A stretch of 23,516 bases of DNA, taken from the IMG/VR virus record IMGVR_UViG_3300017613_000219, positions 1-23,516 of that record; one strand, written 5' to 3'. Under the pieces are notes generated by a model. That model was not told the DNA's origin and made no database searches. It saw only the letters and a program-made list of their open reading frames with translations. The stretch comes from a virus. The position numbers and the translations under genes are program-made. Each line of letters starts with the position of its first letter. The first letter of the stretch is position 1. This document shows positions 127 through 22,030 of this stretch, piece by piece.

Positions 127-414
127 ATGATTGATGACAAAGCACAAGACGCTATAATGGAAGCATACGAAAAAACTATCTTGAATGAAAGACTAGGAGA
201 AAAAGGTAGAACAAAGCCTGAAAATTGGGATAAACGTGGAGTATCAAAGCTTAAAATGGCTGTAGATAATATTGAATTAGCAATTAAAAAACTTGCTGAT
301 GCCAGAAAGTTTGAAATCTATACTCCAGAAGGGATAAAGGCTTCTAAAGAAGAAATTCAGGATCTTATTACTCTTAAAAAAGAACTTACTGCTAGAATAC
401 AAAATCTATCATAG
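127..414 (+). CDS. Hypothetical helical protein
   Basis: This 95-residue, charged, almost wholly helical protein has no transmembrane segment. Residues 40-95 form a Lys/Glu-rich amphipathic stretch that could be a coiled coil. The start is supported by a strong TAGGAGG ribosome site seven bases upstream and by the late promoter at 88-95. I recognise no family. As the first gene of a late unit leading to the gp13-like neck gene, it is more likely a virion or assembly protein than a regulator. Confidence 0.7.
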   Translation: MIDDKAQDAIMEAYEKTILNERLGEKGRTKPENWDKRGVSKLKMAVDNIELAIKKLADARKFEIYTPEGIKASKEEIQDLITLKKELTARIQNLS

Positions 415-423
415 GAAAATAAA

Positions 424-813
424 ATGGAAATAATCGAAAAATTAAAATTATTTGAAGGAGTAAATTATCCAAAAGGTAATACTGTTACCGTTAACTGGCG
501 AATATGCAATCCTAAAGATGATAGCGGAGAATCATGTGAAGAAGTAAACATAGATATTGATTGGTGGCATGAACCAGAAGATCCAGATGTAGGTTATAGT
601 GAAAGATTTGAAGTAGAAGAAGTTAAATTCGGTGAAAATGTTAATTATATGGGAAAGAGATATAGATATGGTCAAGCATTTCCTAAACAATTAAGAAAAC
701 ATGTCATGGAATTTACTGATCCTATGCCTTCTTCCGTAAAATCTAAATTTAAAAATAATTGGGATGACTTTTTAGATTACCAGTTAGCTAAAGCATTAAA
801 CAGGAGATACTAA
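424..813 (+). CDS. Hypothetical protein with capsid-targeting-like N-terminus
   Basis: This 129-residue protein has no family I recognise. It begins MEIIEKLKLFEGV, nearly the same as the next gene's MDIIEKLEVFEKA, after which the two diverge completely. A short shared head on unrelated bodies is how T4 internal head proteins carry a capsid-targeting peptide. L-F-E followed by G fits the L/I-x-E cleavage rule of the T4 gp21 prohead protease. The middle is acidic and probably beta-rich (IDIDWWHEPEDPD); the end is helical and basic (DYQLAKALNRRY). The stop overlaps the next start as TAATG. Capsid targeting is an inference. Confidence 0.7.
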   Translation: MEIIEKLKLFEGVNYPKGNTVTVNWRICNPKDDSGESCEEVNIDIDWWHEPEDPDVGYSERFEVEEVKFGENVNYMGKRYRYGQAFPKQLRKHVMEFTDPMPSSVKSKFKNNWDDFLDYQLAKALNRRY

Positions 814-965
814 TGGATATTATAGAAAAGCTAGAAGTATTTGAAAAGGCCGAAGTAAAATCACTTCTTAAACATAAAATGAAGAAGAAAAAGAAAGAAC
901 ATGGATACCTTTCAACATCTATGTTTACTAAGAAAGAAAAAGACCAAATGAAGAAGGGGAAATAA
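813..965 (+). CDS. Small basic protein with the same N-terminal tag
   Basis: A 50-residue gene fills the gap before the gp13-like gene. Its ATG overlaps the previous stop and its TAA overlaps the next ATG, both as TAATG, and an AGGAG site lies upstream. It begins MDIIEKLEVFEKAEVKSLL, a near copy of the head of the gene at 424. The remainder is very Lys-rich (KHKMKKKKKEH, KKEKDQMKKGK), as expected of a DNA-binding internal head protein. The candidate cleavage site V-F-E has Val where the T4 rule prefers Leu or Ile. Function is unknown; packaging in the head is inferred. Confidence 0.6.
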   Translation: MDIIEKLEVFEKAEVKSLLKHKMKKKKKEHGYLSTSMFTKKEKDQMKKGK

Positions 966-1858
966 TGGCACTAGACATTAGACAATCAAAATCTGATTTA
1001 GCAGAAAGAATTAAAAGAAGGCTAGGTCATCCTGTAGTAAAGGTAGAGTTAGATCCTCAACAAATTTTTGATGCTATTGATTATGCAAGAGACAAATGGG
1101 TTAAATGGGCTGTAGGACAAGCTACCGCTGAAACATACATGACTCTCCTGCTTCGGGCTGATCAGAATTTTTACGATCTTCCAGTTGGAGTAGTAGAAGT
1201 AATTGACTATGATGATAGAGGTGCTGGATGGGGAGGAATAAATACTCTCTTCACTATAGACAATTTCTTTTTCAACAACGGTCTTTATAATTGGATATGG
1301 GCCACAGGAAATAGTTATGACTATAGCTTTGTCAGTTATCACTTATCACTTGACTATCTAAAAACTATAGATAGATATACACCTACAGCATACAATTATA
1401 AATACCATCCATTTACAAATCAGGTAGAAGTACATCCTGCTCCACCGTCTGGAAATTACATACAAGTAATCAATGATCAAGGACAAGAGATTACCGTAGA
1501 TTCTCCTGGATACGTACTGTTAAGAACTTTCATGATCGAAGGTAGTCATTATTCAGGTATGCAATCTAACAATCAACAAGCAGATCCTTGGAAGAGAAGA
1601 GAAACAGATCTTCATAGTGGGAATCTAAATGAAAACTTCTTTACTAGTGATTGGTTATTTGACTATGCACTTGCAGAGTGTAAAATAATTCTAGGGAGGA
1701 TTAGAAGTAAGTTCGCTGGATTTACTTCTATCGGTAATACTGGAATTGATTTAGACGGAGCGGATTTGATAGGAGAAGGTACTGCCGAAAAAGAAAAACT
1801 TGAAGAGACATTAAGATTAGAAGAAGTATATGAAGGATATCCTATTTTTTGGGGTTAA
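965..1858 (+). CDS. 13: Neck protein, T4 gp13-like
   Basis: This 297-residue protein has the gp13 N-terminal signature of T4-like phages: a helical start followed by IKRRLGHPVVKVELDPQQIFDAIDYARD. Around it are Trp/Tyr-rich segments typical of neck proteins that bind the portal and close the filled head. T4 gp13 is of similar size (about 310 residues). A gp14-like gene follows after three small genes, the expected partner in the neck ring. The start is supported by an AAGAAGGGG site. A TATAAATA at 1397 lies inside coding sequence (NYKYHPF) and is not taken as a promoter. Confidence 0.8.
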   Translation: MALDIRQSKSDLAERIKRRLGHPVVKVELDPQQIFDAIDYARDKWVKWAVGQATAETYMTLLLRADQNFYDLPVGVVEVIDYDDRGAGWGGINTLFTIDNFFFNNGLYNWIWATGNSYDYSFVSYHLSLDYLKTIDRYTPTAYNYKYHPFTNQVEVHPAPPSGNYIQVINDQGQEITVDSPGYVLLRTFMIEGSHYSGMQSNNQQADPWKRRETDLHSGNLNENFFTSDWLFDYALAECKIILGRIRSKFAGFTSIGNTGIDLDGADLIGEGTAEKEKLEETLRLEEVYEGYPIFWG

Positions 1859-1867
1859 GGAGGAAGT

Positions 1868-2083
1868 ATGGGTAATTTATTAGATAAATATTTAGGTGAA
1901 GGTGGGCCATATAGAGGTATGAGTATTGAAGGTTTAGCAAAACATATCAAGAAAAAATACGGTAAGAGTGTTAAATCCAGCGTAGTTACTAGTGCAATGG
2001 CAGAAGAGGGGCTTCATGGTGACGATGATTGGCCTGATATGGAAGACGCATTAGGAGCAATTGGAGTCAAAGTAAAAAAGTAA
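1868..2083 (+). CDS. Small protein, possible internal head protein
   Basis: This 71-residue protein starts nine bases after the gp13-like stop, with a strong AAGGAGG site. It begins MGNLLDKYLGEGGPYRG; L-G-E followed by GG matches the cleavage rule of T4 gp21, and DKYLGEGG resembles the NYLTEGG heads at 4310 and 5012. The body has a small helical domain (residues 18-48) and an acidic loop (HGDDDWPDMEDALGAIG). No family is recognised. It may be a packaged protein; the alternative is an unrelated small late protein with a chance match. Confidence 0.65.
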   Translation: MGNLLDKYLGEGGPYRGMSIEGLAKHIKKKYGKSVKSSVVTSAMAEEGLHGDDDWPDMEDALGAIGVKVKK

Positions 2084-2094
2084 GGAGGAATTAA

Positions 2095-2478
2095 ATGATC
2101 AGAAGAACATTCGGTGAATTCATAAGAGAAGGATCAGAAAAAGACGAAAAGATCTATAATGCAATTATGGATTTTTTTGCAGATAATCCAAATCCACCAG
2201 ATGAAGATATACACGACCTTGCAGAGAAACTAGGTATTGATACTCATAAATTTGAAGCTTACATTTACTCTATCTTAGGTTCTATCTTAGGAACTGGAGA
2301 AGCAAAGAAAAAGAAGTTTACAGAGAAAGACGCTGATAAGAAGGAATTGGAAATGGGAGTTAAAGTAGAAATGGAACATACTAAAAACAAAGCTGTGGCT
2401 AAACGTATAGCCTTAGACCATTTAGCGGAGTTACCAGATTACTATACTAGATTAACTAAAATGGAAGGTGAACATTAA
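2095..2478 (+). CDS. DUF5661-like protein with tag-like N-terminus
   Basis: This 127-residue protein has two parts. Residues 1-14 (MIRRTFGEFIREGS) look like the T4 internal-protein leader, which also has an EFI-x-E core, with I-R-E followed by G at the expected cleavage point. Residues 80-127 (KKELEMGVKVEMEHTKNKAV, then a DHLAELPDYYTRL block) match my recollection of DUF5661, a short helical domain of unknown function found in phages and bacteria. Residues 30-60 form a helical region (DEDIHDLAEKLGI). AAGGAGG precedes the ATG. The domain name is from memory and unverified; the function is unknown. Confidence 0.7.
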   Translation: MIRRTFGEFIREGSEKDEKIYNAIMDFFADNPNPPDEDIHDLAEKLGIDTHKFEAYIYSILGSILGTGEAKKKKFTEKDADKKELEMGVKVEMEHTKNKAVAKRIALDHLAELPDYYTRLTKMEGEH

Positions 2479-2487
2479 GGAGGGAAT

Positions 2488-2871
2488 ATGTCAGAACATA
2501 GTAAAATTTTAGAGAAGTATGAAAAAATGTTTGAAGATGGTAGTGCTTATAAACCTATTCGCTTGTCTCAACCTCAACCAAGCATGGCAGAAATGGAAGG
2601 AGCAGGAGTAGTAGAAGAAAAACCTAACATTCCTTTAGGTGATCAAGTAAACAGGGATAACTTTCAAAACGATGGACAGCCTGATTATTCAGAATCCGAT
2701 GCCTACATGGAAGGTAAAATTAATGAAATGAGAACTAGAAATACGCAGGATAACAATCCGAATGTTAATGTGCAACCTGATGTTATTAAAAGGCTCATAA
2801 AAAGAATAGACTTATTGGAGCAAGCTCTTACACTAGTCATGGAAACTCAATCTAAATTAATAAAGGGATAA
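2488..2871 (+). CDS. Hypothetical late protein with C-terminal coiled coil
   Basis: This 127-residue protein follows an AAGGAGGG site and abuts the gp14-like gene directly: its TAA is at 2869-2871 and the next ATG at 2872. The central region (residues 25-90) is polar, rich in Pro, Gln and Asn, and probably disordered. Residues 97-125 (PDVIKRLIKRIDLLEQALTL) form a regular heptad-like helix suited to oligomerisation. It has no signal peptide or transmembrane segment. Its place between neck genes suggests a structural or assembly role; no family is recognised. Confidence 0.65.
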   Translation: MSEHSKILEKYEKMFEDGSAYKPIRLSQPQPSMAEMEGAGVVEEKPNIPLGDQVNRDNFQNDGQPDYSESDAYMEGKINEMRTRNTQDNNPNVNVQPDVIKRLIKRIDLLEQALTLVMETQSKLIKG

Positions 2872-3525
2872 ATGAAGTCACATAAACTAATAAAGCCTAA
2901 ATGGGATCTTCATCAGTTACAAGATAACGTAGAACATGATTTATTCGAATCCGTAATAGTAGAATTTACAGATATATCAGGAATACAATGTCTATATTAT
3001 ATAAGAGATGAAGGAACACCAAAAGATTATTTCTATGGTGAATCAGACCGTACAAGATATCTAAATTCACATTTAACTAGATTAATATATGAGCCTACAG
3101 AGGAGCCTACATTAACTACTGGATTTGGTATCTATTCGGAAGAGATGATTTCATTTGCTTCTATTCCTAAATTAACTATGACTAGAGATGTTAGTGCTGG
3201 ATATCATCCGAAGCCTGGAGATGCTATAATTACTCTATGGAATAATAGAGCTTATGAAATAGCAGACGTAGCAGAAGAAGAGAAGATATTCCAACTGAAA
3301 AAAATGATTTGGGGTTTCGTACTTAAACCTTACAGATTTAGCGAAGAATCAGATTCAGCTAGAGAAATTTCAAGGTTCAATAGAGATCCAAGTCCAGAGA
3401 TCAGAGATACTTTGACTACTCCGTTAACTGCATACGGAGATAACGAAGAAATTACAGAAGAAAGTGATGAGATTTTTGACTATTCAAAAGATTTAGATAT
3501 AGATTCAAAAATATACGGATACTAA
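2872..3525 (+). CDS. 14: Neck protein, T4 gp14-like
   Basis: This 217-residue protein (T4 gp14 has 256) keeps the gp14 core. Residues 82-115 (GFGIYSEEMISFASIPKLTM and following) resemble the T4 segment in which the protein is described as an oriented 'FGL' block followed by an R-P-x-x-G-D stretch; here that stretch is HPKPGDAIITLWNNRAYEIA. Next comes the Phe/Gln-rich block IFQLKKMIWGFVLKPYRFSEES. gp14 joins gp13 to form the neck that accepts the finished tail. No clear ribosome site lies between this gene and the previous stop, so translation is probably coupled. Confidence 0.78.
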   Translation: MKSHKLIKPKWDLHQLQDNVEHDLFESVIVEFTDISGIQCLYYIRDEGTPKDYFYGESDRTRYLNSHLTRLIYEPTEEPTLTTGFGIYSEEMISFASIPKLTMTRDVSAGYHPKPGDAIITLWNNRAYEIADVAEEEKIFQLKKMIWGFVLKPYRFSEESDSAREISRFNRDPSPEIRDTLTTPLTAYGDNEEITEESDEIFDYSKDLDIDSKIYGY

Positions 3526-3526
3526 T

Positions 3527-4300
3527 ATGAGATTTAAATTATACCTAGTAGAAAAAACTTTTAATATTAAAAAGGATGTTGATTTAATTTATAATAAACT
3601 GATGAAAGGTTTTGTAGCTGAAATAGAAAGAGGGGAATTACCTCCAACCGAAATTATTCAAGGATCAATGAAAGGAATTGGATATTCTAGAGATTCAATG
3701 TCTAGTGATCTATTAAGAAGTAAATCAGCTAGAGCGGCTCATGCTATAAAACCTGTATCAATAGAAGTAGGGGTTTTTCCATCTCCAGCATATCAACCAA
3801 CTAAAAATAAAATACATTTAACTTTTTCTCCACATGTTTTAGATATACTAAGGCAAGGGATAAGTTTACCAGTAAATCAACAAAGAAGATTTAAAGCTGA
3901 AACTTCACCGAATAGAATAAAAGCAACAATAGCTCATGAACTTTCACATTGGATGAATGATGTACTACATAATAGTCATATAGAAAAGATAGTAGATCTA
4001 GCGGGTGAATATAATGATCCAAGTATTCTTAAATTGGGCAAAGAAGATGTTAACATGACTCATTTTGAAATAGATGCTCAGATACACGGTATTAAGACAT
4101 TGAAGCAACAACATACTACAGCGCAATGGAATAAATTGACTCTGGCTGATATGATGGATCTATATCCACCGATATACGGAACATGGGAAGCTACAAAGCA
4201 GTATGGAAAAGAAGTAAACAATATATGGAAGAAAATGCTATTGAAAAGAATGGCTAGAGAAAAAATATTAGGAAAGAATATGAGGACTTTTCCAAAATAG
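3527..4300 (+). CDS. Metallopeptidase-like protein with capsid-targeting tag
   Basis: This 257-residue protein carries the zincin motif HELSH at residues 137-141, in the helix IKATIAHELSHWMNDV. A second acidic block, HFEIDAQIHG (Glu181), could supply the third zinc ligand as in HExxH...E proteases. The N-terminus MRFKLYLVEK is shared with the genes at 4310, 5012 and 5925 and looks like a capsid-targeting peptide, with L-V-E as the cleavage point. Residues 30-75 are otherwise unrecognised. Its ATG follows the gp14-like stop by one base. I infer a protease packaged in the head and delivered with the DNA. Alternatives are an inactive fold or a virion-processing enzyme. Confidence 0.7.
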   Translation: MRFKLYLVEKTFNIKKDVDLIYNKLMKGFVAEIERGELPPTEIIQGSMKGIGYSRDSMSSDLLRSKSARAAHAIKPVSIEVGVFPSPAYQPTKNKIHLTFSPHVLDILRQGISLPVNQQRRFKAETSPNRIKATIAHELSHWMNDVLHNSHIEKIVDLAGEYNDPSILKLGKEDVNMTHFEIDAQIHGIKTLKQQHTTAQWNKLTLADMMDLYPPIYGTWEATKQYGKEVNNIWKKMLLKRMAREKILGKNMRTFPK

Positions 4301-4309
4301 GAGATTAAT

Positions 4310-4999
4310 ATGAGATTTAAAAATTATTTAACCGAAGGTGGAAATTACAATCTGAATGTCGCTAAAGTACCGCTAGATAAAGCAAGGGCTTATGCTGAAA
4401 AAATATTTGGAAGTAAAGAAGCACTAGATAAAGCAATTCCTAACTTTGATAAGAATTATCAAGGATTACAGAATTTATATAAAAAGGAAGCACTAGACAT
4501 TCAAAGAATTAAAATGCCTGTCATTGAACCAGACGATATGAAGAAATTTGATGAGAGATTAAAAAGTGGATCAATTGATATCTTCAAACCATTTGCTAAA
4601 GGAAGAAAGGATTTTGATAAAATTGCTCAGAAAGAAGGAGAGAAATGGGTAAAGCTAGGTCAAAAAGATGGTGATCCTAATGACGATAAAGTTCCTGCAA
4701 AGTGGACTACGTTAGCTGGACAAAAATTAAAACCACTACAAGGTCAACTATGGCTAGAGAAGTTAGTCGGTAATATTAAAAAATTCGGAGCGCCAAAGGT
4801 CGGATCTCCTGTATTAAAGACCACTATTATTGTATCTAAAGAAGGATATATTTTAGATGGACATCATAGACATGGACAAGTAATGTTGACAGATCCAAGT
4901 TTGAAAATGCAAGCTTTACATATTCCACTAGATGTTAAGACTCTCCTTAAAATGGGAAAGAGATACGGAGAAGCAATAGGGAATAAAGCCAAAGCATAA
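4310..4999 (+). CDS. ParB-like-fold protein with capsid-targeting tag
   Basis: This 229-residue protein begins MRFKNYLTEGG, the cassette's shared leader, with L-T-E followed by GG at the predicted cleavage site. Residues 171-190 (TTIIVSKEGYILDGHHRHGQ) carry the DGHHR signature of the ParB/sulfiredoxin-like fold, which binds or hydrolyses nucleotides in various families. Residues 20-130 are a charged helical region of unknown role. AGGAG precedes the ATG. The fold is seen in plasmid-partition proteins, nucleases and some toxin-like phage proteins; which activity applies here cannot be read from the sequence. Head packaging is inferred from the leader. Confidence 0.7.
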   Translation: MRFKNYLTEGGNYNLNVAKVPLDKARAYAEKIFGSKEALDKAIPNFDKNYQGLQNLYKKEALDIQRIKMPVIEPDDMKKFDERLKSGSIDIFKPFAKGRKDFDKIAQKEGEKWVKLGQKDGDPNDDKVPAKWTTLAGQKLKPLQGQLWLEKLVGNIKKFGAPKVGSPVLKTTIIVSKEGYILDGHHRHGQVMLTDPSLKMQALHIPLDVKTLLKMGKRYGEAIGNKAKA

Positions 5000-5011
5000 G
5001 AAGAGGTAATT

Positions 5012-5824
5012 ATGAGATTTTTAAAATATCTTACAGAAGGAGCAGGACGATTTGGTTATACTTCTAATATGGATGCTGATAATCATCGTACTCTTGAAAG
5101 CCTAGTCAAGTCTAATAACGGCATATTCAAAAGTATGAAGCAAAGATGGTTTCTACTTGAGAAGCAATTTAAACATAGACAAATAGGTGGTAAAAATAGC
5201 GATTTAGGTAGCGACTTTAGTTCAAAGCAAATGAGAGGGTTTAGTGGACTCAAGAAAGGTGATTATCTAGTTGAGATAGATGCTTATATGGTTTTCGGAA
5301 AAAAAGGCGCTGGTCAAGGAACAAGGCGTTTAGAATGGGGTTATGTAGTGGATGACGTAGGAGTAAGAGAAAAATATAAATACGGATTTAGCTATTCAGA
5401 TGGTGGACATGCATCTCAATTAGAGAATAGTAAAACTAAACAGCAATGGAAAAGAGATGAAAATGATGCAGTAAAAGAATTTCGTGAACTAGTTGCTCAA
5501 GAAGATATGGCTAGAGACAAAAAAATAAAAGCCAGTACAGCCGAATTGATGAAGAGTGAATATGTAGGTGTTATTGGTGAAAGAGTAAAAGGACATGATA
5601 TAGAAGTACTCCGTAAGCATGAATTTGAAACGCAATTCGGCTGGAGTGCCATAACTGTAATGAAAGATAATGATGGAAATATGATTCAACATTTCGGAAG
5701 AAACAAACTCAAAAAAGGTGATAAGAAAAAAGTTGACTTCACAGTAAAAGGACATGATCCAGCGGAAGTAAACAGATGGAATAAAGTACCATACAAACTT
5801 ACTTCGGTGAATAGAGTAAAATAG
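5012..5824 (+). CDS. Putative internal head protein, unknown body
   Basis: This 270-residue basic protein begins MRFLKYLTEGAG, again the shared leader with L-T-E followed by GA. The body is Lys/Arg-rich. Its final 60 residues (FGWSAITVMKDNDGNMIQHF, then KGDKKKVDFTVKGH and LTSVNRVK) resemble a small beta domain at the ends of some phage and plasmid DNA-metabolism proteins, with the pattern 'FG...Y.M.D.DGN...F......GD.....GTVK.H....LTRV'. That resemblance is from memory and weak. AGAGG precedes the ATG. A TATAAATA at 5385 is within codons for KYKYGF. The role is unknown. Confidence 0.65.
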   Translation: MRFLKYLTEGAGRFGYTSNMDADNHRTLESLVKSNNGIFKSMKQRWFLLEKQFKHRQIGGKNSDLGSDFSSKQMRGFSGLKKGDYLVEIDAYMVFGKKGAGQGTRRLEWGYVVDDVGVREKYKYGFSYSDGGHASQLENSKTKQQWKRDENDAVKEFRELVAQEDMARDKKIKASTAELMKSEYVGVIGERVKGHDIEVLRKHEFETQFGWSAITVMKDNDGNMIQHFGRNKLKKGDKKKVDFTVKGHDPAEVNRWNKVPYKLTSVNRVK

Positions 5825-5928
5825 GAGAAAGATTTCAAAATTATATAAATGAGCTATTCAATCAAGCCGTTGAGCTTCAAGTACAAGAAAAAGTAGATAT
5901 ACTGTTTTCAGGAAAACCGACACCATGA
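5821..5928 (+). pseudogene. Start-less remnant of a tagged internal-protein gene
   Basis: This frame reads IGERFQNYINELFNQAVELQ, then VQEKVDILFSGKPTP, and stops at TGA 5926-5928. RFQNYINE aligns with the shared leader RFKNYLTE, including an I-N-E cleavage motif, but the codon where ATG should be is GAA (5827-5829). Compared with the junction before 4310 (AAAATAGGAGATTAATATGAG), the junction here (AAAATAGGAGAAAGATTTC) looks as if a short segment containing the start codon was deleted. The frame still overlaps the next start as ATGA, so it may be translated by an unusual start or readthrough, or it may be dead. Confidence 0.5.
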
Positions 5929-6905
5929 GATTAAAGAAATACTTAGTAGAAAAATCATTTATGCAATCAGATATACCTAGAGTTTTTAGAGTAGCTATGG
6001 AATGGGGATATGATGAAAAAGCTTTTAAAACTTTAAAACAACTAGAGAATATGCAGTTAAAAGGGTTGACTGGTATTAGTGACGCTGGAGATTTAACATT
6101 TCAATGGATAGGAGCAGGAAGAGATATACTTCTAGTAATGAAAGGACAAGAAGTAGTCGATAATAATAAAATATCCAGATTCCTATATGACAATCCTCAT
6201 TATATGTTAAGTAATAACATGAAATGGTTGAGAAGAATGTACCAGAGAAGAGAAGGGGATGATACTCCTGGAATTCTTTTTAATTTGAATAAAGAAGTAT
6301 TTATAATTCTTGCAAGAAGAGGACATATAACTAAATATGATATAGAATACTCCGCACCATATCAAACAATGGCAAGTAAACATCTTGTAGGGAACGCTAA
6401 AATAAACGGAGTTAAAGATTATATAAAAGTTTTTAGAAAGACATATAGAACCATAGCGGCTAAAGAAAGAAAAGAGGATCATTGGAATCATAGAGAATTC
6501 ATGAGGAAATCCGAAGAAGAAACTAATACCAGAGGTGGATTTGAAGAGAAGTTCGATAAGATATCAGATGCAGAATTCGCTAGTGTAGTACAAGAAGCCT
6601 TTGATGAAATAAAAAGGATTTACGGTAGTGAAGGAGAATGGGTAGTCAAAACAAAAGTTCTAAATGTTCCTAAAAAATCATATTTATATGTAATGGAAAA
6701 ATACCCAAAGGAAGAAGTAAAATCATATAAAGAAAATCCTGAAAAGCTTATGGATTCTTGGACAAAAGAAGGGATAATAAGGTGGATAAAACTTACAGAT
6801 GGAATTGATAAAAAATTAAAAGGTAAATATATAGTTAAGTATATTAGTGCAAAAGAATTTAGAAGAGTACAAACAATACATTTTAGTAGGACAGATAAAA
6901 AATGA
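5925..6905 (+). CDS. Putative internal head protein, unknown body
   Basis: This 326-residue protein, the last and largest of the tagged set, begins MRLKKYLVEKSF, with L-V-E as the candidate cleavage site. The body is mixed helical and charged, with many Arg and Lys residues (e.g. MKWLRRMYQRREGDDTPGIL), and I recognise no catalytic motif. No strong ribosome site precedes the ATG; the start overlaps the TGA of the remnant at 5821-5928 as ATGA. The gene overlaps the gp15-like start by four bases. An internal head protein injected with DNA is inferred from the leader alone. Confidence 0.65.
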   Translation: MRLKKYLVEKSFMQSDIPRVFRVAMEWGYDEKAFKTLKQLENMQLKGLTGISDAGDLTFQWIGAGRDILLVMKGQEVVDNNKISRFLYDNPHYMLSNNMKWLRRMYQRREGDDTPGILFNLNKEVFIILARRGHITKYDIEYSAPYQTMASKHLVGNAKINGVKDYIKVFRKTYRTIAAKERKEDHWNHREFMRKSEEETNTRGGFEEKFDKISDAEFASVVQEAFDEIKRIYGSEGEWVVKTKVLNVPKKSYLYVMEKYPKEEVKSYKENPEKLMDSWTKEGIIRWIKLTDGIDKKLKGKYIVKYISAKEFRRVQTIHFSRTDKK

Positions 6906-7669
6906 AAGATTATTTCTTTTTTCATGTTTTTAGAAAAACATTGATACAATTTTTAGATGCTTTCGATGATATTAAGATTGCTAGATATACTCCAGATGGA
7001 TCAGCAATTGAAAAATATGTTGAAGTACCAATAAAGCTATCCGCAAAAGAAAAGGTTTACTATTGGTTGAATACAAGAAAAGACGATATAATGCTACCTA
7101 TGATTACTGCATGGATATCTTCAATTGATTTTGCCGCTGACAGAGCGGTAAATAACTTCTTCGAAATATGTAAAGGAGCCAATACAGAGACAGAAGAGTT
7201 CCAGAAATTTTTACATCCTATTCCATATAACCTTACAGTTACTATGAATATATGGGCGTTGCATATGGTAGATATTGATCAAATTATGGAACAAATACTT
7301 CCATTTTTTGCTCCACATATTTTTGTTAGAGTTGGATTAGAAGAACTAGGTATTGATTTTGATGTCAAAGTAATTTTTAGAAGTGCCACTCCAGAAATAA
7401 GTCATGAAATGGGAGATGACGAATACAGAGTAATTAACTACACTATGGATTTCGAATTACAGACATGGTTCTTTAAACCAGTAGAGACAAGTAAATTGGT
7501 AGGTAAGATCTTCAATAGTATTTGGACTAATCCAGAAGCATTTTGTGAATACGTTGGGGATACCGATTCTACCTTTTCCTCTGGAGCTTCGGGAGGAACA
7601 CATATAGATCTAAGAGGAAAAATTGAGGATGGAGATTTAATTATTAAATACAATCTCTTTGAACCATGA
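6902..7669 (+). CDS. 15: Tail terminator / sheath stabiliser, T4 gp15-like
   Basis: This 255-residue protein (T4 gp15 has 272) matches gp15 in several blocks: N-terminal FHVFRKTLIQFLDAFDDIKI, the strand EKYVEVPIKLSAKEKVYYWL, then IPYNLTVTMNIWALHMVDID with QIMEQILPFFAPH (T4 has QIVEQILPYFQPH), and a C-terminal DYEWS-like strand (YTMDFELQTWFFKPV). gp15 forms the hexamer that caps the sheath and tube and joins the head neck. The start overlaps the previous stop as ATGA. In T4, gp13, gp14 and gp15 are adjacent; here the tagged cassette lies between 14 and 15. Confidence 0.82.
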   Translation: MKDYFFFHVFRKTLIQFLDAFDDIKIARYTPDGSAIEKYVEVPIKLSAKEKVYYWLNTRKDDIMLPMITAWISSIDFAADRAVNNFFEICKGANTETEEFQKFLHPIPYNLTVTMNIWALHMVDIDQIMEQILPFFAPHIFVRVGLEELGIDFDVKVIFRSATPEISHEMGDDEYRVINYTMDFELQTWFFKPVETSKLVGKIFNSIWTNPEAFCEYVGDTDSTFSSGASGGTHIDLRGKIEDGDLIIKYNLFEP

Positions 7670-7670
7670 C

Positions 7671-7699
7671 AGAGCGCAGAACCGCTCTAGTTAGAGCGG
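7671..7699 (+). promoter_or_regulatory. Alternative hairpins in the 7670-7710 leader
   Basis: CCGCTCT (7682-7688) can pair with AGAGCGG (7693-7699) around the loop AGTT. It can also pair, as CGCTCT, with the upstream AGAGCG (7671-7676). The two stems exclude each other. The downstream stem ends directly before the AAGGAAAA ribosome site of the gene at 7711. It could be a translational control or mRNA processing element; it has no U tract and so is a poor terminator. Confidence 0.45.
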
Positions 7700-7710
7700 A
7701 AGGAAAATAA

Positions 7711-8244
7711 ATGACTATTACATGTGGACAATCAGGTTTAACTAATCTAGACAAAGCTACACCTACGAATTTTCAGTTGATATTTCCGAAACTTCCTACA
7801 GAAGAAACTATATCTGCTAATAATCCGTTTGTTATGAATATCTTTTCTGCTGTTATACCTAGTTTATCAATGGCAGAAGAAGAGTTACGTTGGCAGAGTA
7901 ACAAAACAAAACATGCTCTTGTACCTTTGGAATATGATTCATGGCTAGTTAGTTATGTAGTGGATTCTCAATTAGCAAATTGGAAACTTCTTTATGATTG
8001 GATGTCATTTATAAACAATAATAATGATAAGATAGCAGAACTACATAGTGTATATGGTGTTGATGCAAGTCTGGTTACTACAAATAATTATAGAACACCA
8101 GTTCTTGAGCTTAGATTTATAGATATTTGGCCTAGTACTTTGGGAGAAGTTTCCTTTAGTACAAGAGAAGGTGACGTACAATTAGAAAGTACTGTAAATT
8201 TTACATATGACTACTTTGAAGTTATCAGACCAATTTCCTCATAA
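7711..8244 (+). CDS. Tail-tube-like protein (second tube paralogue)
   Basis: This 177-residue protein has the size (T4 gp19 is 163) and strand pattern of a myovirus tail-tube subunit. It begins with FQLIFPKLPTEETI, then the middle strand pair ALVPLEYDSWLVSYVVDSQL and WKLLYDWMSFINN, and the final pair LELRFIDIWPSTLGEV and ESTVNFTYDYFEV. The closing layout (IDIWPSTLGEV...FTYDYFEV) parallels the gene at 10282 (HDAWPKEVGQI...FTYSYHEV), so the two are probably paralogues. It lies upstream of the sheath while the other lies downstream. It might form the tube end near the neck, a baseplate junction, or a specialised ring. Fold assignment is moderate and the exact role is unknown. Confidence 0.65.
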   Translation: MTITCGQSGLTNLDKATPTNFQLIFPKLPTEETISANNPFVMNIFSAVIPSLSMAEEELRWQSNKTKHALVPLEYDSWLVSYVVDSQLANWKLLYDWMSFINNNNDKIAELHSVYGVDASLVTTNNYRTPVLELRFIDIWPSTLGEVSFSTREGDVQLESTVNFTYDYFEVIRPISS

Positions 8245-8277
8245 AACCTTATTTTTTCTTCAAAAACATTAAAAAAA

Positions 8278-8285
8278 TATAAATA
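8278..8285 (+). promoter_or_regulatory. T4-type late promoter box before the sheath gene
   Basis: TATAAATA is preceded by a seven-A run and followed by GTATTAG, the same extended pattern as at 88 and 10854. It lies in the 147-base gap between the tube-like and sheath genes, about 107 bases before the sheath ATG. A dedicated late promoter would suit the high demand for sheath subunits. Confidence 0.78.
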
Positions 8286-8357
8286 GTATTAGAAGAAGTA
8301 CTTACTTTATCTCATAAATAACATGGGATAGTAATATCTTTAATAATTTAGAAAAGC

Positions 8358-8377
8358 TATCGGGAAATAATCCGATA
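8358..8377 (+). promoter_or_regulatory. Leader hairpin before the sheath ribosome site
   Basis: TATCGG (8358-8363) pairs with CCGATA (8372-8377) around an eight-base A/T-rich loop. It ends just before the CAGGAGG ribosome site of the sheath gene and would lie in the leader of a transcript from the late promoter at 8278. It may stabilise the mRNA or keep the ribosome site open; the stem is short, so function is uncertain. Confidence 0.4.
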
Positions 8378-8391
8378 TAACAGGAGGAATT

Positions 8392-10221
8392 ATGACACAA
8401 TATTTATCACCGTTAGTAGACGTTAATGAAATAGATCTTACGACTACTATCCCTGCCGTAGCAACAAGTATTGGTGTGAATGTGTTGAGGAATACTTGGA
8501 AGGGGCCAGAACTAAAAGTTCAACTAGTCAATACTATTGATGAATTGACTCAAATTTTCGGAGCGCCTAGTGATGACTCTTATGAAGATCTTATGGCATC
8601 AGTAGGGTTCTTGCAATATGGAAATAATCTATATTGTACAAGAGTAATGCCACCTAGTGCAACATTCGCTGGAGCTTATGGAACTGTATTATCTGGAAGT
8701 TCTTTAACTCCATACGTTTCAGGAAGTGCTTACCAGTTATCGGATTTCGTTTCAGAAGATCCAGATGAATTTGGTGAAGAGGATACAGTATTTGATGCTG
8801 GCCCGCCCGCAAGACCTGATTTTGGTTCACAACTTTCCTTTATAGCTAATAGTAGAGGAGATTGGGGTAACTATGTAAAGGTAGCAATTGTAGGAAGAGA
8901 CACTTATAACAATGTTAGAAAAGGAATTGATAATGATATCGCTGGTGGATCACCTACAGGAAGTCCAGGTATTTCCGCTGATTTATACGATGATATTGAT
9001 AGTCAAGTAGACTTAGCGTTTGACGATGACAAAGAATTTATCGTTATAGTCAAAGCCGCAGAACAATTTGATCTCAATAAAACCGTAATCCCTTATTCTG
9101 TAGTAGAGTCATTTTTAGTAAGTACAGATCCTCTAGCTATAGACGATGAAGGGGGTACACAATACTGTATAAATGTAATTAATGCCAGATCACAATATAT
9201 TAGAATGGCAGTAACAGCCGAGTTTAAAAACACTAGTATGAAAAACAAATGGATGATTGACTATACTAATCTTGGTGGTGGAGTCAATAATCAGGGAGAT
9301 CTTGTTCAAGATGGAGATATTATAGATGCAATTGATCTTTATTCGGACGCTGAAAGAATAGATGTCAATATCTTTATCGACAGTAATAAGTCTTCTACTG
9401 TAAAGAGACATATTCTAAGTGTTTGTGAAAGCAGAAAGGATGCTGTAGGAGTACTAGATGTTCCTAAAGCATTAGTAGTAAATAATAGAGGTAACGAAGC
9501 AACCGATTGTAGAGATTGGAGAATTGGAACATTAAGTAATCCTGCTCCGTTTGAGGATTTTAATGAGAATTCTAGTTATGTTGCTCTTTATGCTAACTGG
9601 TTAAACGTCTATGATAAATGGAATAGTGTATATAGATGGATTCCTGCTTCTGGACAAGCGGCTGGTATCTACGCTAATACTGACGATGTAGCGGAAGCTT
9701 GGTTTGCTCCTGCTGGATTGAATAGAGCTATTCTAAATAACGTAAGAAAACTTTCTTGGAATCCTGTAATTGGTGAAAGAGACATCCTTTATAAGAATGG
9801 TCTTAATCCAATCGTAAGTTTTCCAGGTCAAGGTAAAGTAATTTGGGGTCAGAAGAATATGCTAGACAAAACTTCTGCATTTAACCGAGTTAATATTAGA
9901 AGACTTTTTATCATACTAGCTAAAGCAATTTCAACTGCTTTGAAGTTCTTCTTATTCGAACCAAATGATACCTTTACCAGACTACAGGTAATCAATTTAA
10001 TTGATCCTTTCTTACGAGATGTTGTAGCCAGAAGAGGAATATTTGACTACATGATCGTTTGTGACGGTAGAAATAATACTCCAGAAAGAATTGATAGAAA
10101 CGAGTTATGGTGTGATATCTACATTAAGCCTACAAGGGCCGCTGAATTTATCGTACTTAACTTAGTTGCCACCAAAACTGGAGCAAGCTTTACAGAGTTA
10201 ATTTCTGCTCAAGCAGTTTAA
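8392..10221 (+). CDS. 18: Tail sheath protein, T4 gp18-like
   Basis: This 609-residue protein (T4 gp18 has 659) has the sheath N-terminus of T4-like phages: SPLVDVNEIDLTTTIPAVAT, then GPELKVQLVNTIDELTQIFG and the Tyr/Cys strand YGNNLYCTRVMPPSA. The conserved C-terminal domain is also present: YWERDILYKNGLNP-like text (here VIGERDILYKNGLNPIVSFP), GQGKVIWGQKNML, VNIRRLFIILAKAISTALKF, FEPNDTFTR and a closing VDIYIKPTRAAEFIVLNLV-type strand. Sheath subunits stack as hexamers around the tube and contract on infection. AGGAGG precedes the ATG, and a late promoter and leader hairpin lie upstream. Confidence 0.92.
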   Translation: MTQYLSPLVDVNEIDLTTTIPAVATSIGVNVLRNTWKGPELKVQLVNTIDELTQIFGAPSDDSYEDLMASVGFLQYGNNLYCTRVMPPSATFAGAYGTVLSGSSLTPYVSGSAYQLSDFVSEDPDEFGEEDTVFDAGPPARPDFGSQLSFIANSRGDWGNYVKVAIVGRDTYNNVRKGIDNDIAGGSPTGSPGISADLYDDIDSQVDLAFDDDKEFIVIVKAAEQFDLNKTVIPYSVVESFLVSTDPLAIDDEGGTQYCINVINARSQYIRMAVTAEFKNTSMKNKWMIDYTNLGGGVNNQGDLVQDGDIIDAIDLYSDAERIDVNIFIDSNKSSTVKRHILSVCESRKDAVGVLDVPKALVVNNRGNEATDCRDWRIGTLSNPAPFEDFNENSSYVALYANWLNVYDKWNSVYRWIPASGQAAGIYANTDDVAEAWFAPAGLNRAILNNVRKLSWNPVIGERDILYKNGLNPIVSFPGQGKVIWGQKNMLDKTSAFNRVNIRRLFIILAKAISTALKFFLFEPNDTFTRLQVINLIDPFLRDVVARRGIFDYMIVCDGRNNTPERIDRNELWCDIYIKPTRAAEFIVLNLVATKTGASFTELISAQAV

Positions 10222-15104: not shown

Positions 15105-15126
15105 TATTAGCAATCATACGCTAATA
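15105..15126. promoter_or_regulatory. Inverted repeat over the minus-strand -10
   Basis: TATTAGC (15105-15111) and GCTAATA (15120-15126) form a perfect seven-base dyad with an eight-base spacer. It contains the -10 box (15113-15118) of the minus-strand promoter. Its position suits a repressor operator controlling the minus-strand pair. It is also compatible with chance in AT-rich DNA. Confidence 0.4.
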
Positions 15127-15140
15127 TATTTTTTTTGTCA
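15113..15140 (-). promoter_or_regulatory. Sigma70-type promoter, minus strand
   Basis: On the minus strand, TTGACA (15140-15135) and TATGAT (15118-15113) are 16 bases apart, about 30 bases before the ATG at 15081. The -35 matches the host housekeeping consensus fully. It drives the 15081-14672 pair and is divergent from the promoter at 15207. Confidence 0.7.
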
Positions 15141-15206
15141 AGTGTTATTTTTGGCATGAATCTTGCATATACCTAAAATCATTGGAAAAATAAATCAAAA
15201 TAGTTC

Positions 15207-15235
15207 TTGACATTGTATCTAATATAAGATAGAAT
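15207..15235 (+). promoter_or_regulatory. Sigma70-type promoter P1
   Basis: TTGACA (15207-15212) and TAGAAT (15230-15235) have the ideal 17-base spacing. The -35 is perfect and the leader continues with AAACTCAAAAAAGGAGAAC before the ATG at 15269. The promoter and leader closely resemble those at 15436, pointing to a duplicated expression cassette. Host RNA polymerase would be enough to use it, so early expression is expected. Confidence 0.85.
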
Positions 15236-15435: not shown

Positions 15436-15464
15436 TTGACATTCTATCTTATTTAATATAGACT
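15436..15464 (+). promoter_or_regulatory. Sigma70-type promoter P2
   Basis: TTGACA (15436-15441) with TAGACT (15459-15464) at 17 bases; a TAATAT box also overlaps at closer spacing. The sequence from -35 to the ribosome site copies P1 with few changes (TTGACATT, TATCT, AAACTCAAAAAAAGGA). It starts nine bases after the stop of the gene at 15269 and drives the gene at 15494. Confidence 0.75.
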
Positions 15465-15493: not shown

Positions 15494-15964
15494 ATGAATT
15501 TTGAAATCGGACAAGAAGTTACTTTAAATGGTAGTATCTACAAAATTGCTGGTACTGTTAAAAGGTCTTGGCTTCTGGAGAAAGATGGAAAGCAATACAA
15601 GGCAACTTCTAACATGATGAAAAAAATTCAGGAGCAAAATAAAAATGGTATCGGTGTTGGAAAACGAAAACGGCAAAAAAGATCCGCTACCTTTCATATG
15701 GAAAAGCGTTTAGCTTATCGAAAAATTTTTGATCGAAATGCGAAGTTGCCAGAGACAGAAGAAGAATTGCTAGATGCTCTGGATGTTCTTTGCAATGAGC
15801 TTTCACCTGAGAATCTTTTCTGTGACGGTGAAATTTCCAGATCTGCTGGACTGAGAAAAGCAAGTGCCTTGAGAGCCGAATGGAAAGAAGTGGAAAGAAA
15901 ATTAGGTAGGAAAGTTTCAGAAGGAGAAGTTGAAAACCGCTGGTTAGAAAAACATAGGAGATAG
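15494..15964 (+). CDS. Hypothetical early protein
   Basis: This 156-residue basic protein begins MNFEIGQEVTLNGSIYKIAG, a short beta start like a KOW/SH3-type fold, followed by a Lys/Arg block (VGKRKRQKRSATFHMEKR) and a helical half (residues 80-156). The helical half is charged, with a pattern (EVERKLGRKVSEGEVENRWL) reminiscent of helical DNA-binding or adaptor proteins. AAAGGAAAAC precedes the ATG, and promoter P2 lies upstream. I recognise no family. A nucleic-acid-binding role is a guess from charge and the beta start. Confidence 0.65.
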   Translation: MNFEIGQEVTLNGSIYKIAGTVKRSWLLEKDGKQYKATSNMMKKIQEQNKNGIGVGKRKRQKRSATFHMEKRLAYRKIFDRNAKLPETEEELLDALDVLCNELSPENLFCDGEISRSAGLRKASALRAEWKEVERKLGRKVSEGEVENRWLEKHRR

Positions 15965-15968
15965 AAAA

Positions 15969-16424
15969 ATGGATTGGATGGATAAAAAACCAGAAGCTTG
16001 TAAACATAAAAGAAAAATAGACTTTACTACATGGTCTTTCGGTGACGAAAAACATATAGAACATTTCTTTTGTCCAAATTGTAAAGCCCATTGGTTCAAA
16101 GGCAAATACTATAATAAGGAACAATGGGAAGAATATATAAATGGGCCAGAGGACGAAGAAGAGAAAAAAGTTTTGGTAGTAGATAATATGGAGAATACAA
16201 ATAAACTCCTATTAGATTCAATAAAAAAATTAAAAGATTTAAATCTTCCTGGCGCTATGGTAGTAGGAAGAACTCCAGAAGATATAGAAATAAATTTTCC
16301 TTATGAATGTGCTGTATGTGGATTAAGATCAAACAAATTAGAGAAAATTTCAAATAACGGTAGATGCTTTAATTGTGATTCCCCATTAACTGATATCGAA
16401 AACGAAGACGAAGAGGAGATTTAA
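15969..16424 (+). CDS. Protein with two zinc-ribbon motifs
   Basis: This 151-residue protein starts four bases after the previous stop. Residues 11-38 hold CKH and FCPNC (Cys11, His13, Cys35, Cys38), and residues 114-136 hold CAVC and CFNC, a clear Cys4 ribbon with PYECAVCGLRSNKLEKISNN in between. The linker is acidic and helical (NMENTNKLLLDSIKKLKDLN), and the C-terminus is strongly acidic. Such modular ribbons suggest nucleic-acid or protein binding; no enzyme motif is visible. No family is recognised. Confidence 0.65.
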   Translation: MDWMDKKPEACKHKRKIDFTTWSFGDEKHIEHFFCPNCKAHWFKGKYYNKEQWEEYINGPEDEEEKKVLVVDNMENTNKLLLDSIKKLKDLNLPGAMVVGRTPEDIEINFPYECAVCGLRSNKLEKISNNGRCFNCDSPLTDIENEDEEEI

Positions 16425-16427
16425 TCC

Positions 16428-16565
16428 ATGAAAGCAAAATTTCAGAAAACAGATGAAGGTGTCAAGTTACTAGCTATCTACGTTGCTCAATTGACCAGAG
16501 AAGGAATGGCTTATCAGTTGGATGATTTAACTAACCATTATACCGTTATCATTACAGGGTTCTAA
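16428..16565 (+). CDS. Small hypothetical protein (45 residues)
   Basis: MKAKFQKTDEGVKLLAIYVA, then QLTREGMAYQLDDLTNHYTV and IITGF. It follows an AGGAG site at the end of the preceding gene, and its TAA overlaps the next ATG as TAATG. It is probably a small helical protein with a closing strand. It has no Cys or membrane segment. The prepilin gene follows it directly, so it may be translated with it; no family is recognised. Confidence 0.55.
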   Translation: MKAKFQKTDEGVKLLAIYVAQLTREGMAYQLDDLTNHYTVIITGF

Positions 16566-16924
16566 TGAATAATAAAGGCTTTACTCTTATAGAGCTTATA
16601 GCAGTTATGATCATACTAGGTATAGTAACTACCTTTGGTGTAGTTAAATTTATACGTATTGATCATACCGCTGAAATACGTGGTCTTGAGATAGGGCTAA
16701 TGGAGATCAATACCAGAGAAAAGCTTGTTTGGACTAATCTAAAAATTTCTTCCACTTCTTTTAATAACAATGAAGAATTTGATGCCGCTATAATTGAAGA
16801 AGTAGATTTGAATATGACTGATTATGTTTGGAATGGTACTACTCTATCTTTAGGTGGATCTTCTTTTTCACTAGAAAGAATTCCAGCTACCAGAAAACAT
16901 CCAGGAATATGGAAAAAAATATGA
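16565..16924 (+). CDS. Type IV prepilin / pseudopilin-like protein
   Basis: This 119-residue protein carries the class III signal sequence of prepilins: MNNKG, then FTLIELIAVMIILGIVTTFG. The peptidase would cut after Gly5, exposing Phe1 with the conserved Glu at mature position 5. The 20-residue hydrophobic helix is normal for pilins, and the short beta-rich remainder (WNGTTLSLGGSSFSLERIPA, HPGIWKKI) is typical of minor pilins or pseudopilins. From memory, the C-terminal part resembles short pseudopilins of deltaproteobacteria. Processing would need the host peptidase (PilD-type). A phage gene of this kind is unusual. It could block, decorate or alter host pili or type II secretion. ATG overlaps the previous stop as TAATG. 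Confidence 0.75.
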   Translation: MNNKGFTLIELIAVMIILGIVTTFGVVKFIRIDHTAEIRGLEIGLMEINTREKLVWTNLKISSTSFNNNEEFDAAIIEEVDLNMTDYVWNGTTLSLGGSSFSLERIPATRKHPGIWKKI

Positions 16925-17076
16925 AACCTATGTTTGAAGACATCTTAACAATTGATAAGAGCATGGGAGAATCCAGATTCCCACAAGTTTATGGTGTGAT
17001 TCTCTTTATCGAAACAATTATCCTCTGTCTACAAAAGGAAACTATAATTTCCTTTTGGAAACTATACTTTACTTAG
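16921..17076 (+). CDS. Small protein with one hydrophobic segment
   Basis: This 51-residue gene starts MKPMFEDILTIDKSMGESRF. Its ATG overlaps the prepilin TGA as ATGA, a typical coupled start. A hydrophobic stretch (VYGVILFIETIILCL, about residues 23-37) may span the membrane. A longer reading of this frame begins at 16828 but lies inside the prepilin gene and is not preferred. The end of the gene overlaps the GGAAACTATA repeats. It could be a partner of the pilin-like protein, but that rests only on adjacency. Confidence 0.5.
   Translation: MKPMFEDILTIDKSMGESRFPQVYGVILFIETIILCLQKETIISFWKLYFT
17037..17070 (+). repeat. Tandem GGAAACTATA direct repeats
   Basis: GGAAACTATAATTT (17037-17050) and GGAAACTATACTTT (17057-17070) are 14-base near-identical repeats with a 20-base period. 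They lie just before the ribosome site of the DUF932 gene. A related sequence, GGAAGACTATACTTT, lies at 101-115 before the first complete gene. Each contains a -10-like TATAAT or TATACT but no matching -35. They may be binding sites for a phage regulator or an alternative promoter. Confidence 0.45.
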
Positions 17077-17086
17077 AGGAAAAATC

Positions 17087-17998
17087 ATGCAACATTATAT
17101 TCCTATTGATACTCAAAATCCAGATGAAGCTATGTTACTTTCTCACAACTTCACGGTAGAAAGTCAAGACATAAAAACAGAAAGAGATATTTGGATTCCC
17201 GATAAGAAAGCAATCGTAAGAAGGGATACTAACCAATATTTAGGTACGGTAGGTAAAGGATGGGAACCAGTCCAACCAGAAGTACTTTACAGTATGGCAC
17301 AGGAACTTATCGAAGCTACCGATGGTTCAATTAACGGTCTTTTGAATATGTTTGACGGAGCAGTTATAGGAATATCATTTAAACTTGCGGAACGTGAGTT
17401 TGTAGACGATGATAAAATTGATTTGAACTTCCTTATGCTTACTGCTTTTAATGGTCAATATGGGCTTTCTGGAAGTGCTATAGCCTATCGACATGCCAAT
17501 GATAGCATGGCAAATACCAGCAACAAAGTCTTCAATTTAAAGCATACGAAATTTGTAGGCAATCGAATTGAAGTAGTCAAGGATATGCTCAAGTACTATA
17601 ATCAAGAAATCAGATCCTTTGACATGCTTATGAATAAGCTTGTTACTAAACCTATGAGCGAAGATCTAGCAGTTGATTGGTTCAAAACATTATTCCCTAA
17701 AGCTACTACTATTAGATCTACACGGATGCTTAATAACGCTATAGACAAATTCAAAACATTACTACGTATCGAAAACGCAAGAGGGGTTTCGGGGGTCGCT
17801 GGAACGTCTTACGGAGCTTGGTGTGCGTTGGCTCAATACATCAATCACCATAGAACTATCAGAGTTCATAATGATAGAAATCCAGAAGAAGTAAGATTCC
17901 AGACAATCAACTTTGGAACTGGTAATGTTATGATGCAAAAAGGAATTACAAAATTAACCAATGATTATTTTGATAAAGAAGAATTCATGATTGACTAA
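17087..17998 (+). CDS. DUF932 (phage/plasmid-like) protein
   Basis: This 303-residue protein matches the DUF932 family, known in plasmid and phage genomes as 'phage/plasmid-like protein' (TIGR03299). Typical blocks are RDTNQYLGTVGKGWEPVQPE near residue 45, DGAVIGISFKLAEREFVDDD, LNFLMLTAFNGQYGLSGSAI and the helical C-terminal half ending TGNVMMQKGITKL. The family's function is not established. AGAGG precedes the ATG, and the GGAAACTATA repeats lie upstream. Several other early genes follow on the same strand. A transferred accessory gene is plausible. Confidence 0.72.
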   Translation: MQHYIPIDTQNPDEAMLLSHNFTVESQDIKTERDIWIPDKKAIVRRDTNQYLGTVGKGWEPVQPEVLYSMAQELIEATDGSINGLLNMFDGAVIGISFKLAEREFVDDDKIDLNFLMLTAFNGQYGLSGSAIAYRHANDSMANTSNKVFNLKHTKFVGNRIEVVKDMLKYYNQEIRSFDMLMNKLVTKPMSEDLAVDWFKTLFPKATTIRSTRMLNNAIDKFKTLLRIENARGVSGVAGTSYGAWCALAQYINHHRTIRVHNDRNPEEVRFQTINFGTGNVMMQKGITKLTNDYFDKEEFMID

Positions 17999-21112: not shown

Positions 21113-22030
21113 ATGGATTTAATTAAAGGTGTGTATGATATTTCGGAAGAGTTTTTGAATTTACCAAGTTCATATCCGCAACATGTAGTTAGGGATAATG
21201 ATAAAATTACTGATCTTGTAAATCAAATGTCACAAGATGGTGTAGTCAATTTCTATACGGAAGAAGATCAAGAAGTAAAAAAAAAGAAGAATGTATTATA
21301 TATAATTCTTAGGGAATTAATAGCAAGTTCGATTAACTATTGCTACTGGTACGGTAACGCAAACATTAGACCTAATGGAGCCAATTCAGGAATGATGTAT
21401 GATTTGGTAGAAGAAGCAATGAAGGGATTTGATACAAATCCATCTACCGCTGTTTATGAAACTTTGTTAATGTTTTCTAGGTGCATAGATCATTTGATAT
21501 CACTTCTTTCAGTTTCAAGATTTCCTCTGTTGGAAGAAAGAAAAAGACATCTTCTTGAATTAACTGAAAACGGAAAAGGGATAAAATTTGCAACGTATGT
21601 TTCTCGCAATTTCGATAAAGCAAGTGGACAGACAATATTAGAAAAACTAGTCAAAACTTTTACAGGCTTTGCTTCTGATACTTTCCTGAAACGTGCTTCT
21701 CTTTTCTTCATCCAGCTATACAGGCAATTGGGTTGGTTCTATGATCTTGTCAAAGTCTTACATGTACCAGCGGATTACCAAGTACCAAACGTATTAAATC
21801 ATTTCGGAGCTTTCTACTATAGCAATGCTTTGAGTTTTAAAATGCAAGAAGGAAAACTAATTGAGCCAAGTTCGCTTATGGAATGTCAGCTAAGAGCCGC
21901 TACAGTACTGGTGTGTAAACAAATATGCGGAGCTACAGGATGGAACATTGCTGATGTCGATACATATCTCTGGACGAAGCGAAAATTACCAAGAACAAAA
22001 TTTCACTTGACAAAGACTACTGATTACTGA
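21113..22030 (+). CDS. Queuosine nucleotide N-glycosylase, QNG1/DUF2419-like
   Basis: This 305-residue protein aligns by eye with the queuosine salvage family (human QNG1, about 340 residues) across most of its length: INYCYW (74-79) with LNFSFW; FPLLEERKRHL (137-147) with MPLVEERHRIL; KRASLFFIQLY (193-203) with KRAQILVADTW; PADYQVPNVLNHFGAFYYS (219-237) with FADYRLPQVLAHLGALKYS; ECQLRAATV (257-265) with EVEIRGCSL; and DVDTYLW (281-287) with LLDYYLW. QNG1 hydrolyses queuosine 5'-monophosphate, releasing queuine. AAAGGAGG precedes the ATG. The closing Tyr is kept. The phage enzyme's substrate could be a different 7-deazaguanine nucleotide. The human sequence is recalled from memory. Confidence 0.75.
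   Translation: MDLIKGVYDISEEFLNLPSSYPQHVVRDNDKITDLVNQMSQDGVVNFYTEEDQEVKKKKNVLYIILRELIASSINYCYWYGNANIRPNGANSGMMYDLVEEAMKGFDTNPSTAVYETLLMFSRCIDHLISLLSVSRFPLLEERKRHLLELTENGKGIKFATYVSRNFDKASGQTILEKLVKTFTGFASDTFLKRASLFFIQLYRQLGWFYDLVKVLHVPADYQVPNVLNHFGAFYYSNALSFKMQEGKLIEPSSLMECQLRAATVLVCKQICGATGWNIADVDTYLWTKRKLPRTKFHLTKTTDY

Follow-up and report, generated by a model that had tools for sequence, protein, structure and literature searches.

The DNA analyzed here (the window), a 23.5-kb virus record, is part of a 37.4-kb contig, IMGVR_UViG_3300017527_000241; the two are 99.99% identical over the 11.9 kb compared directly. Because this contig encodes a T4-type terminase, major head protein, tail sheath, and baseplate proteins, we assign the phage to the T4-like myoviruses. 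Its nearest named relatives, which are cyanophages and phages of Sinorhizobium and Ochrobactrum, share ~34-38% identity with it in capsid and sheath. In L209, which represents the same phage, the terminase large subunit (405-2951, minus strand) is split at its Walker A motif by a LAGLIDADG-containing insert, probably an intein. The products of four consecutive genes at 3527-6905 of the window begin alike, with MR(F/L)K(x)YL(x)E at the N terminus, and then continue as different proteins, as though they carried a common tag.

A prepilin-like gene of 119 aa, with an ATG start, occupies positions 16565..16924, stop codon included, within a cluster of small genes on the plus strand. Using its conserved right-hand neighbor, a DUF932 gene (17087..17998, plus strand; PF06067, 2.2e-14; 64-70% identity in relatives), as an anchor, we located the prepilin at the matching place in three more distinct related phages, L102, L103, and L104; L105 is the same as L104 across the compared region. 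Upstream in the cluster, likewise on the plus strand, are a 156-aa gene with no assigned function (15494..15964; 72-84% identity in relatives), a 151-aa cysteine-rich, zinc-ribbon-like gene (15969..16424) whose C-terminal CxxC...CxxC part is conserved in L102-L104, and a 45-aa companion gene (16428..16565; 58-87% identity in L102, L103, and L104). The original prediction placed the prepilin within a run of overlapping small genes at 16428-17076. This holds for the conserved companion, which overlaps the prepilin start through the start/stop sequence TAATG. The third member, a 51-aa open reading frame (ORF; 16921..17076, plus strand) that overlaps the prepilin stop through ATGA, is an uncertain gene: it is better read from the ATG at 16921 than from the TTG at 16828 and was not seen at the matching place in the relatives. 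SWIM zinc finger, phosphoesterase, and queuosine salvage genes are further neighbors; the last (21113-22030; PF10343, 3.1e-17) is unexpected for a phage.

A class III signal in a conserved phage gene

Class III signals consist of a leader ending in Gly or Ala, followed by 20-25 hydrophobic residues, often with Glu at +5 (PMC10191384). The N terminus encoded at 16565-16924, MNNKGFTLIELIAVMIILGIV (MNNKG|FTLIE), has this form: in MNNKG|FTLIELIAVMIILGIV, a five-residue leader containing Lys (16565..16579, plus strand) ends in Gly at -1, with Phe at +1, Glu at +5, and a hydrophobic stretch of ~20 residues, and prepilin peptidase is predicted to cut after Gly5. Two family models recognize it above their cut-offs, Pfam PF07963 (N_methyl; 1.2e-7, 31.4 bits against a cut-off of 21.2, spanning residues 2-23) and NCBIfam TIGR02532 (IV_pilin_GFxxxE; 9.1e-8). 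We also scanned all six frames for G[hydrophobic]xxxE close to a start and followed by a hydrophobic stretch; the prepilin was the sole site in the window, and none of 200 Markov-1 sequences of equal length and composition contained one. The textbook signal with Glu5 first noted at these positions is thus confirmed, coordinates included.

The residues most closely tied to this signal are also the best conserved. All four phages keep N2, N3, K4, G5, F6, L8, and E10 without change, and three have the proline at mature position 22 that is usual in pilins. L102 and L103 carry full-length prepilins that are about 53% and about 48-49% identical to the window protein over aligned residues, and L104 has a 79-aa form that has lost nearly all of the head. 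Between L102 and L103, dN/dS is ~0.19, similar to that of the flanking genes (more distant pairs are close to saturation), which supports purifying selection on the gene. In each of the four phages the companion lies next to or close by the prepilin, on one side or the other. At the locus of more distant DUF932 relatives (L155-L159) we detected no prepilin, and the companion was not found in these prepilin-less phages; the prepilin is therefore an accessory gene of one sublineage.

These observations support the view that the ORF encodes a real phage prepilin-type protein, whose cleavage, methylation, and polymerization are predictions, and they uphold the earlier description of a phage gene in a tight cluster. 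A recently captured, inert bacterial gene or a chance ORF could also bear such a motif, which in its general form is common in bacterial genomes, and the G+C content of the gene (32%, against a phage average of 34%) is uninformative on this point. Four divergent copies at one locus, the low dN/dS, and a motif not expected by chance make this explanation extremely improbable, and the conserved, intact copies largely refute it.

Promoters and the timing of expression

The cluster begins with a sigma-70-like promoter, TTGACA-17-TAGAAT (TTGACATTGTATCTAATATAAGATAGAAT; 15207..15235, plus strand; 11/12 match), whose family and spacer recur at the matching place in L102, L103, and L104. A second promoter of the same family, TTGACA-17-TAGACT (15436..15464, plus strand; 10/12), precedes the 156-aa gene and has counterparts in L102 at 4556 and in L103 at 4365. 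At the matching place, L102 (12/12) and L103 each have two such promoters, and the family is also represented in L104. In each contig, sigma-70 sites of this quality are commoner than in random sequence. Between a leftward gene and the prepilin cluster, positions 15113-15235 of the window hold divergent near-consensus sigma-70 promoters. The late-type sites of the window (TATAAATA), whose total count is not above chance, all fall in the structural part, several of them right before genes, and none is found in the prepilin region.

The conserved sigma-70 promoters, together with the confinement of late-type sites to the structural part, suggest that host RNA polymerase probably transcribes the prepilin early or in the middle of infection, using the host-like sigma-70 promoter. 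They also argue against a role in the virion. The gene does lie only ~1.9 kb downstream of the tail and baseplate block, as might a virion or tail component in which the pilin signal is coincidental or re-used. However, the leftward gene and an intergenic region with conserved near-consensus promoters separate it from that block, no late-type promoter lies in its region, and it keeps company with DUF932, SWIM zinc finger, phosphoesterase, and queuosine salvage genes. On the strength of gene position and promoters, we rejected the virion reading as very improbable.

Predicted fold and relationship to bacterial pilins

Structure prediction suggests a pilin-like architecture. In the AlphaFold models, a long N-terminal helix is followed by a second helix and a small sheet of three to four strands, giving a lollipop shape, and the matches of this shape to pilins in fold searches are non-significant. 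For the window protein, one of five models was good (pLDDT 80; 52-58 for the other four), and for the L103 homolog all five agreed (pLDDT 77-81). The mature N-terminal helix (alpha1; 16580..16747, plus strand) is hydrophobic over approximately residues 6-27 and amphipathic on to ~61; it is modeled as residues 8-61 in the window protein and as 8-29 plus 35-62 in the L103 homolog. The models and the alignment place alpha2 (69-81) and three strands in the small head (16748..16921, plus strand), which contains a LERIPATxKxP motif conserved in the long forms. With the L103 model as query, the top-ranking chain among 350,542 in the PDB was gonococcal pilin (1ay2) and the next Thermus PilA5 (6xxe), both at non-significant E values, and no match among PDB or viral models reached significance. 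A profile of the four phage proteins matched solved pilins (MshA, 1.9e-7), with the N-terminal helix accounting for most of the similarity.

We looked for a close host-derived relative, a search that the original prediction had suggested, and found none: the protein resembles bacterial pilins chiefly along the N-terminal helix, and its head matches nothing bacterial at a significant level. A scan of GTDB contigs returned N-terminal similarity only, partly because the pattern MNNKGFTL drove the search. Neither the phylum of Desulfopila nor that of Colwellia, each represented by ~400 genomes, gave a pilin-like match with a head-only profile. A tblastn search with a consensus pilin peptide gave no hits, probably an effect of masking or of the peptide's length. 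With the full-length profile, several pilins of 120-130 aa from Desulfopila-phylum genomes (L178, L187, L192) aligned almost end to end. Descent from these pilins is unproven; profile-profile comparison of the heads with one such group (L178, L180, L181, and L201) gave nothing.

Bacterial minor pilins and pseudopilins (type IVa, GspG/GspH, ComGC) share with the phage protein the class III signal, Glu5, a long helix, and a small head, and the NCBIfam GspG and ComGC models match its N-terminal part. Yet all scores fall far under the curated cut-offs for named pilins, and no assembly genes lie near the prepilin. The best equivalog, GspG, reaches 21.5 bits against a cut-off of 88.85, which places the protein outside GspG, GspH, ComGC, and PilA. 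Defense-system models did not match it.

A candidate modifier of host filaments and its counterparts in other phages

In 12 prepilin-bearing viral records, including the 37.4-kb contig and its relatives, most of them incomplete contigs, we found no prepilin peptidase (Peptidase_A24, PF01478) and no assembly ATPase (T2SSE, PF00437) over the cut-off. No complete type IV filament system of the phages' own was thus seen in these mostly incomplete contigs. The pattern implies that the host must supply the machine, although most of the contigs are fragments, in which absence proves little. A prepilin encoded without an assembly apparatus would probably be inserted into a pilus or secretion filament of the host.

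We therefore favor, at roughly even odds (~0.5), a reading in which the phage prepilin acts on the host: it would be processed by the host peptidase, join a putative host type IV filament, and alter or poison that filament. Synthesis would be early or middle, from the host-like sigma-70 promoter. The protein would enter the inner membrane, where host prepilin peptidase would cut it after Gly5, and the mature helix with Glu5 could then be drawn into a pilus, a competence pilus, or a type II pseudopilus. Present there as an additional or poisoning minor pilin, the protein might change filament dynamics or exposure. The likely benefit would be a cell closed to other pilus-using phages, or a resetting of secretion or surface behavior during infection. 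Altered pilus dynamics have a bacterial precedent in Vibrio cholerae, where the ratio of minor to major pilin changes them (PMC13249403). The signal, conservation in four phages, selection, early-type promoters, the predicted fold, the lack of a phage peptidase or ATPase, and the possession of prepilins by unrelated phages count for this host-directed minor pilin. Against it count the lack of a significant bacterial head homolog, the non-significant fold-search E values, and a target filament that is putative.

The truncated L104 form, together with other mini-prepilins, keeps two further explanations in play; with so little of the head left in L104, the protein may serve some end other than insertion as a regular subunit. 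The protein could be a membrane-anchored effector that merely uses a prepilin signal, with a helix that keeps a small domain in the periplasm or inner membrane and with no role in a filament; a superinfection immunity or envelope protein would be an example. The almost headless 79-aa L104 form, the similarly short KVP40 (66 aa) and Nankokuvirus G1 (59 aa) proteins, and a long-form head that is conserved yet resembles no bacterial pilin head we found are consistent with such an effector. A simple anchor, however, would not need the peptidase-site residues and Glu5 kept in all four phages, nor the pilin-helix proline kept in three, and we consider this explanation unlikely. Alternatively, the protein could act outside the filament as a competitive decoy, mainly tying up the prepilin peptidase of the host, or its assembly platform, and thereby blocking assembly of pili or of type II secretion. 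Early-type promoters and mini forms that retain only signal and helix would suit a decoy; a predicted folded head kept under purifying selection in three phages is more than a pure decoy would need, and we regard this possibility as quite doubtful.

The original prediction also held that phage pilin mimics are few, which our survey contradicts. Short prepilin-type proteins occur in KVP40 and its vibriophage relatives, Acibel004, cyanophages (S-CAM7/ACG-2014f), and other public phages (Nankokuvirus G1, vibriophage 033B, Aeromonas AhFM11, Microcystis phage MaAM05), and PHROGs has a 'pilin' family. An IMG/VR scan with a single degenerate motif returned 44 stretches, comprising ~20 distinct short prepilin types and longer host-gene-like proteins, and prepilin-bearing viral records reach 548 kb. 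Because phage prepilins look unrelated outside the signal and helix, capture appears to have occurred repeatedly. Other arrangements were also seen. The viral contig L005 (IMGVR_UViG_3300030106_006270, 96 kb; group L003-L009), which has CobS/CobT-like phage genes, encodes at 7299-9285 three consecutive N_methyl prepilins and, upstream of them, a fourth protein whose signal is Tad/Flp-like (GQSLAEFAVTTAMM); a prepilin peptidase was not found in this record. The 548-kb viral contig G811 (L147) has two adjoining prepilins at ~210259-210769, and in L116 and L135 a prepilin-like protein of 62 aa repeats one hydrophobic stretch, ELLITLVIAAI, three times.

The window prepilin is a new family within a known kind, phage-encoded prepilins. 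Its best PHROG, phrog_13280, has no assigned function and aligns over residues 1-26 only. The 'pilin' family phrog_3433, a name also used in the S-CAM7 and ACG-2014f records, likewise comprises a short phage protein with a class III signal and is filed under moron, auxiliary metabolic gene and host takeover; its match to the window prepilin is weak (0.0069), covers residues 3-36 rather than the full length, and leaves the heads unrelated. KVP40.0030 (66 aa) is also encoded in a non-structural region of a T4-like phage and has a class III signal, with 60% identity over residues 1-25, but it lacks the head domain and has other neighbors (thymidylate synthase). The Nankokuvirus G1 prepilin is similarly short, and an ORF of ValKK3, a KVP40-type vibriophage, has been noted as a low-homology PilE (PMC13142089). 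Acibel004 gp97, annotated as 'type IV pilus assembly protein, PilE-like' (107 aa), is another short phage prepilin among small genes, but its head is unrelated and it belongs to another phage group. In the literature searched, we found no experimental study of any phage pilin.

Prepilins recur in unrelated phages, and a conserved, selected, and probably early family offers a clear test case. More tentatively, and at somewhat less than even odds, we propose a distinct, early-expressed phage minor-pilin family that has a dedicated partner of 45 aa and that, once processed by the host, would become part of host type IV filaments and reprogram them during infection, a strategy that many phages would have reached independently; this proposal takes in both the single mini-prepilins of T4-like phages and the tandem three-or-four-prepilin cassettes of the L005 group. 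In support of a host-directed role, several phages are known to disable type IV pili by other means (PMC11436027, PMC8143254). Tip of a Pseudomonas phage and the Pf phage proteins resemble the prepilin in proposed purpose only, a host pilus changed during infection (PMC8143254, PMC11436027); the binding partner of Tip is the assembly ATPase PilB, and descriptions of Tip do not liken it to pilins. If the prepilin does enter a filament, lytic phages would be editing host pili or secretion through a subunit that they contribute themselves, whereas Tip binds the assembly motor.
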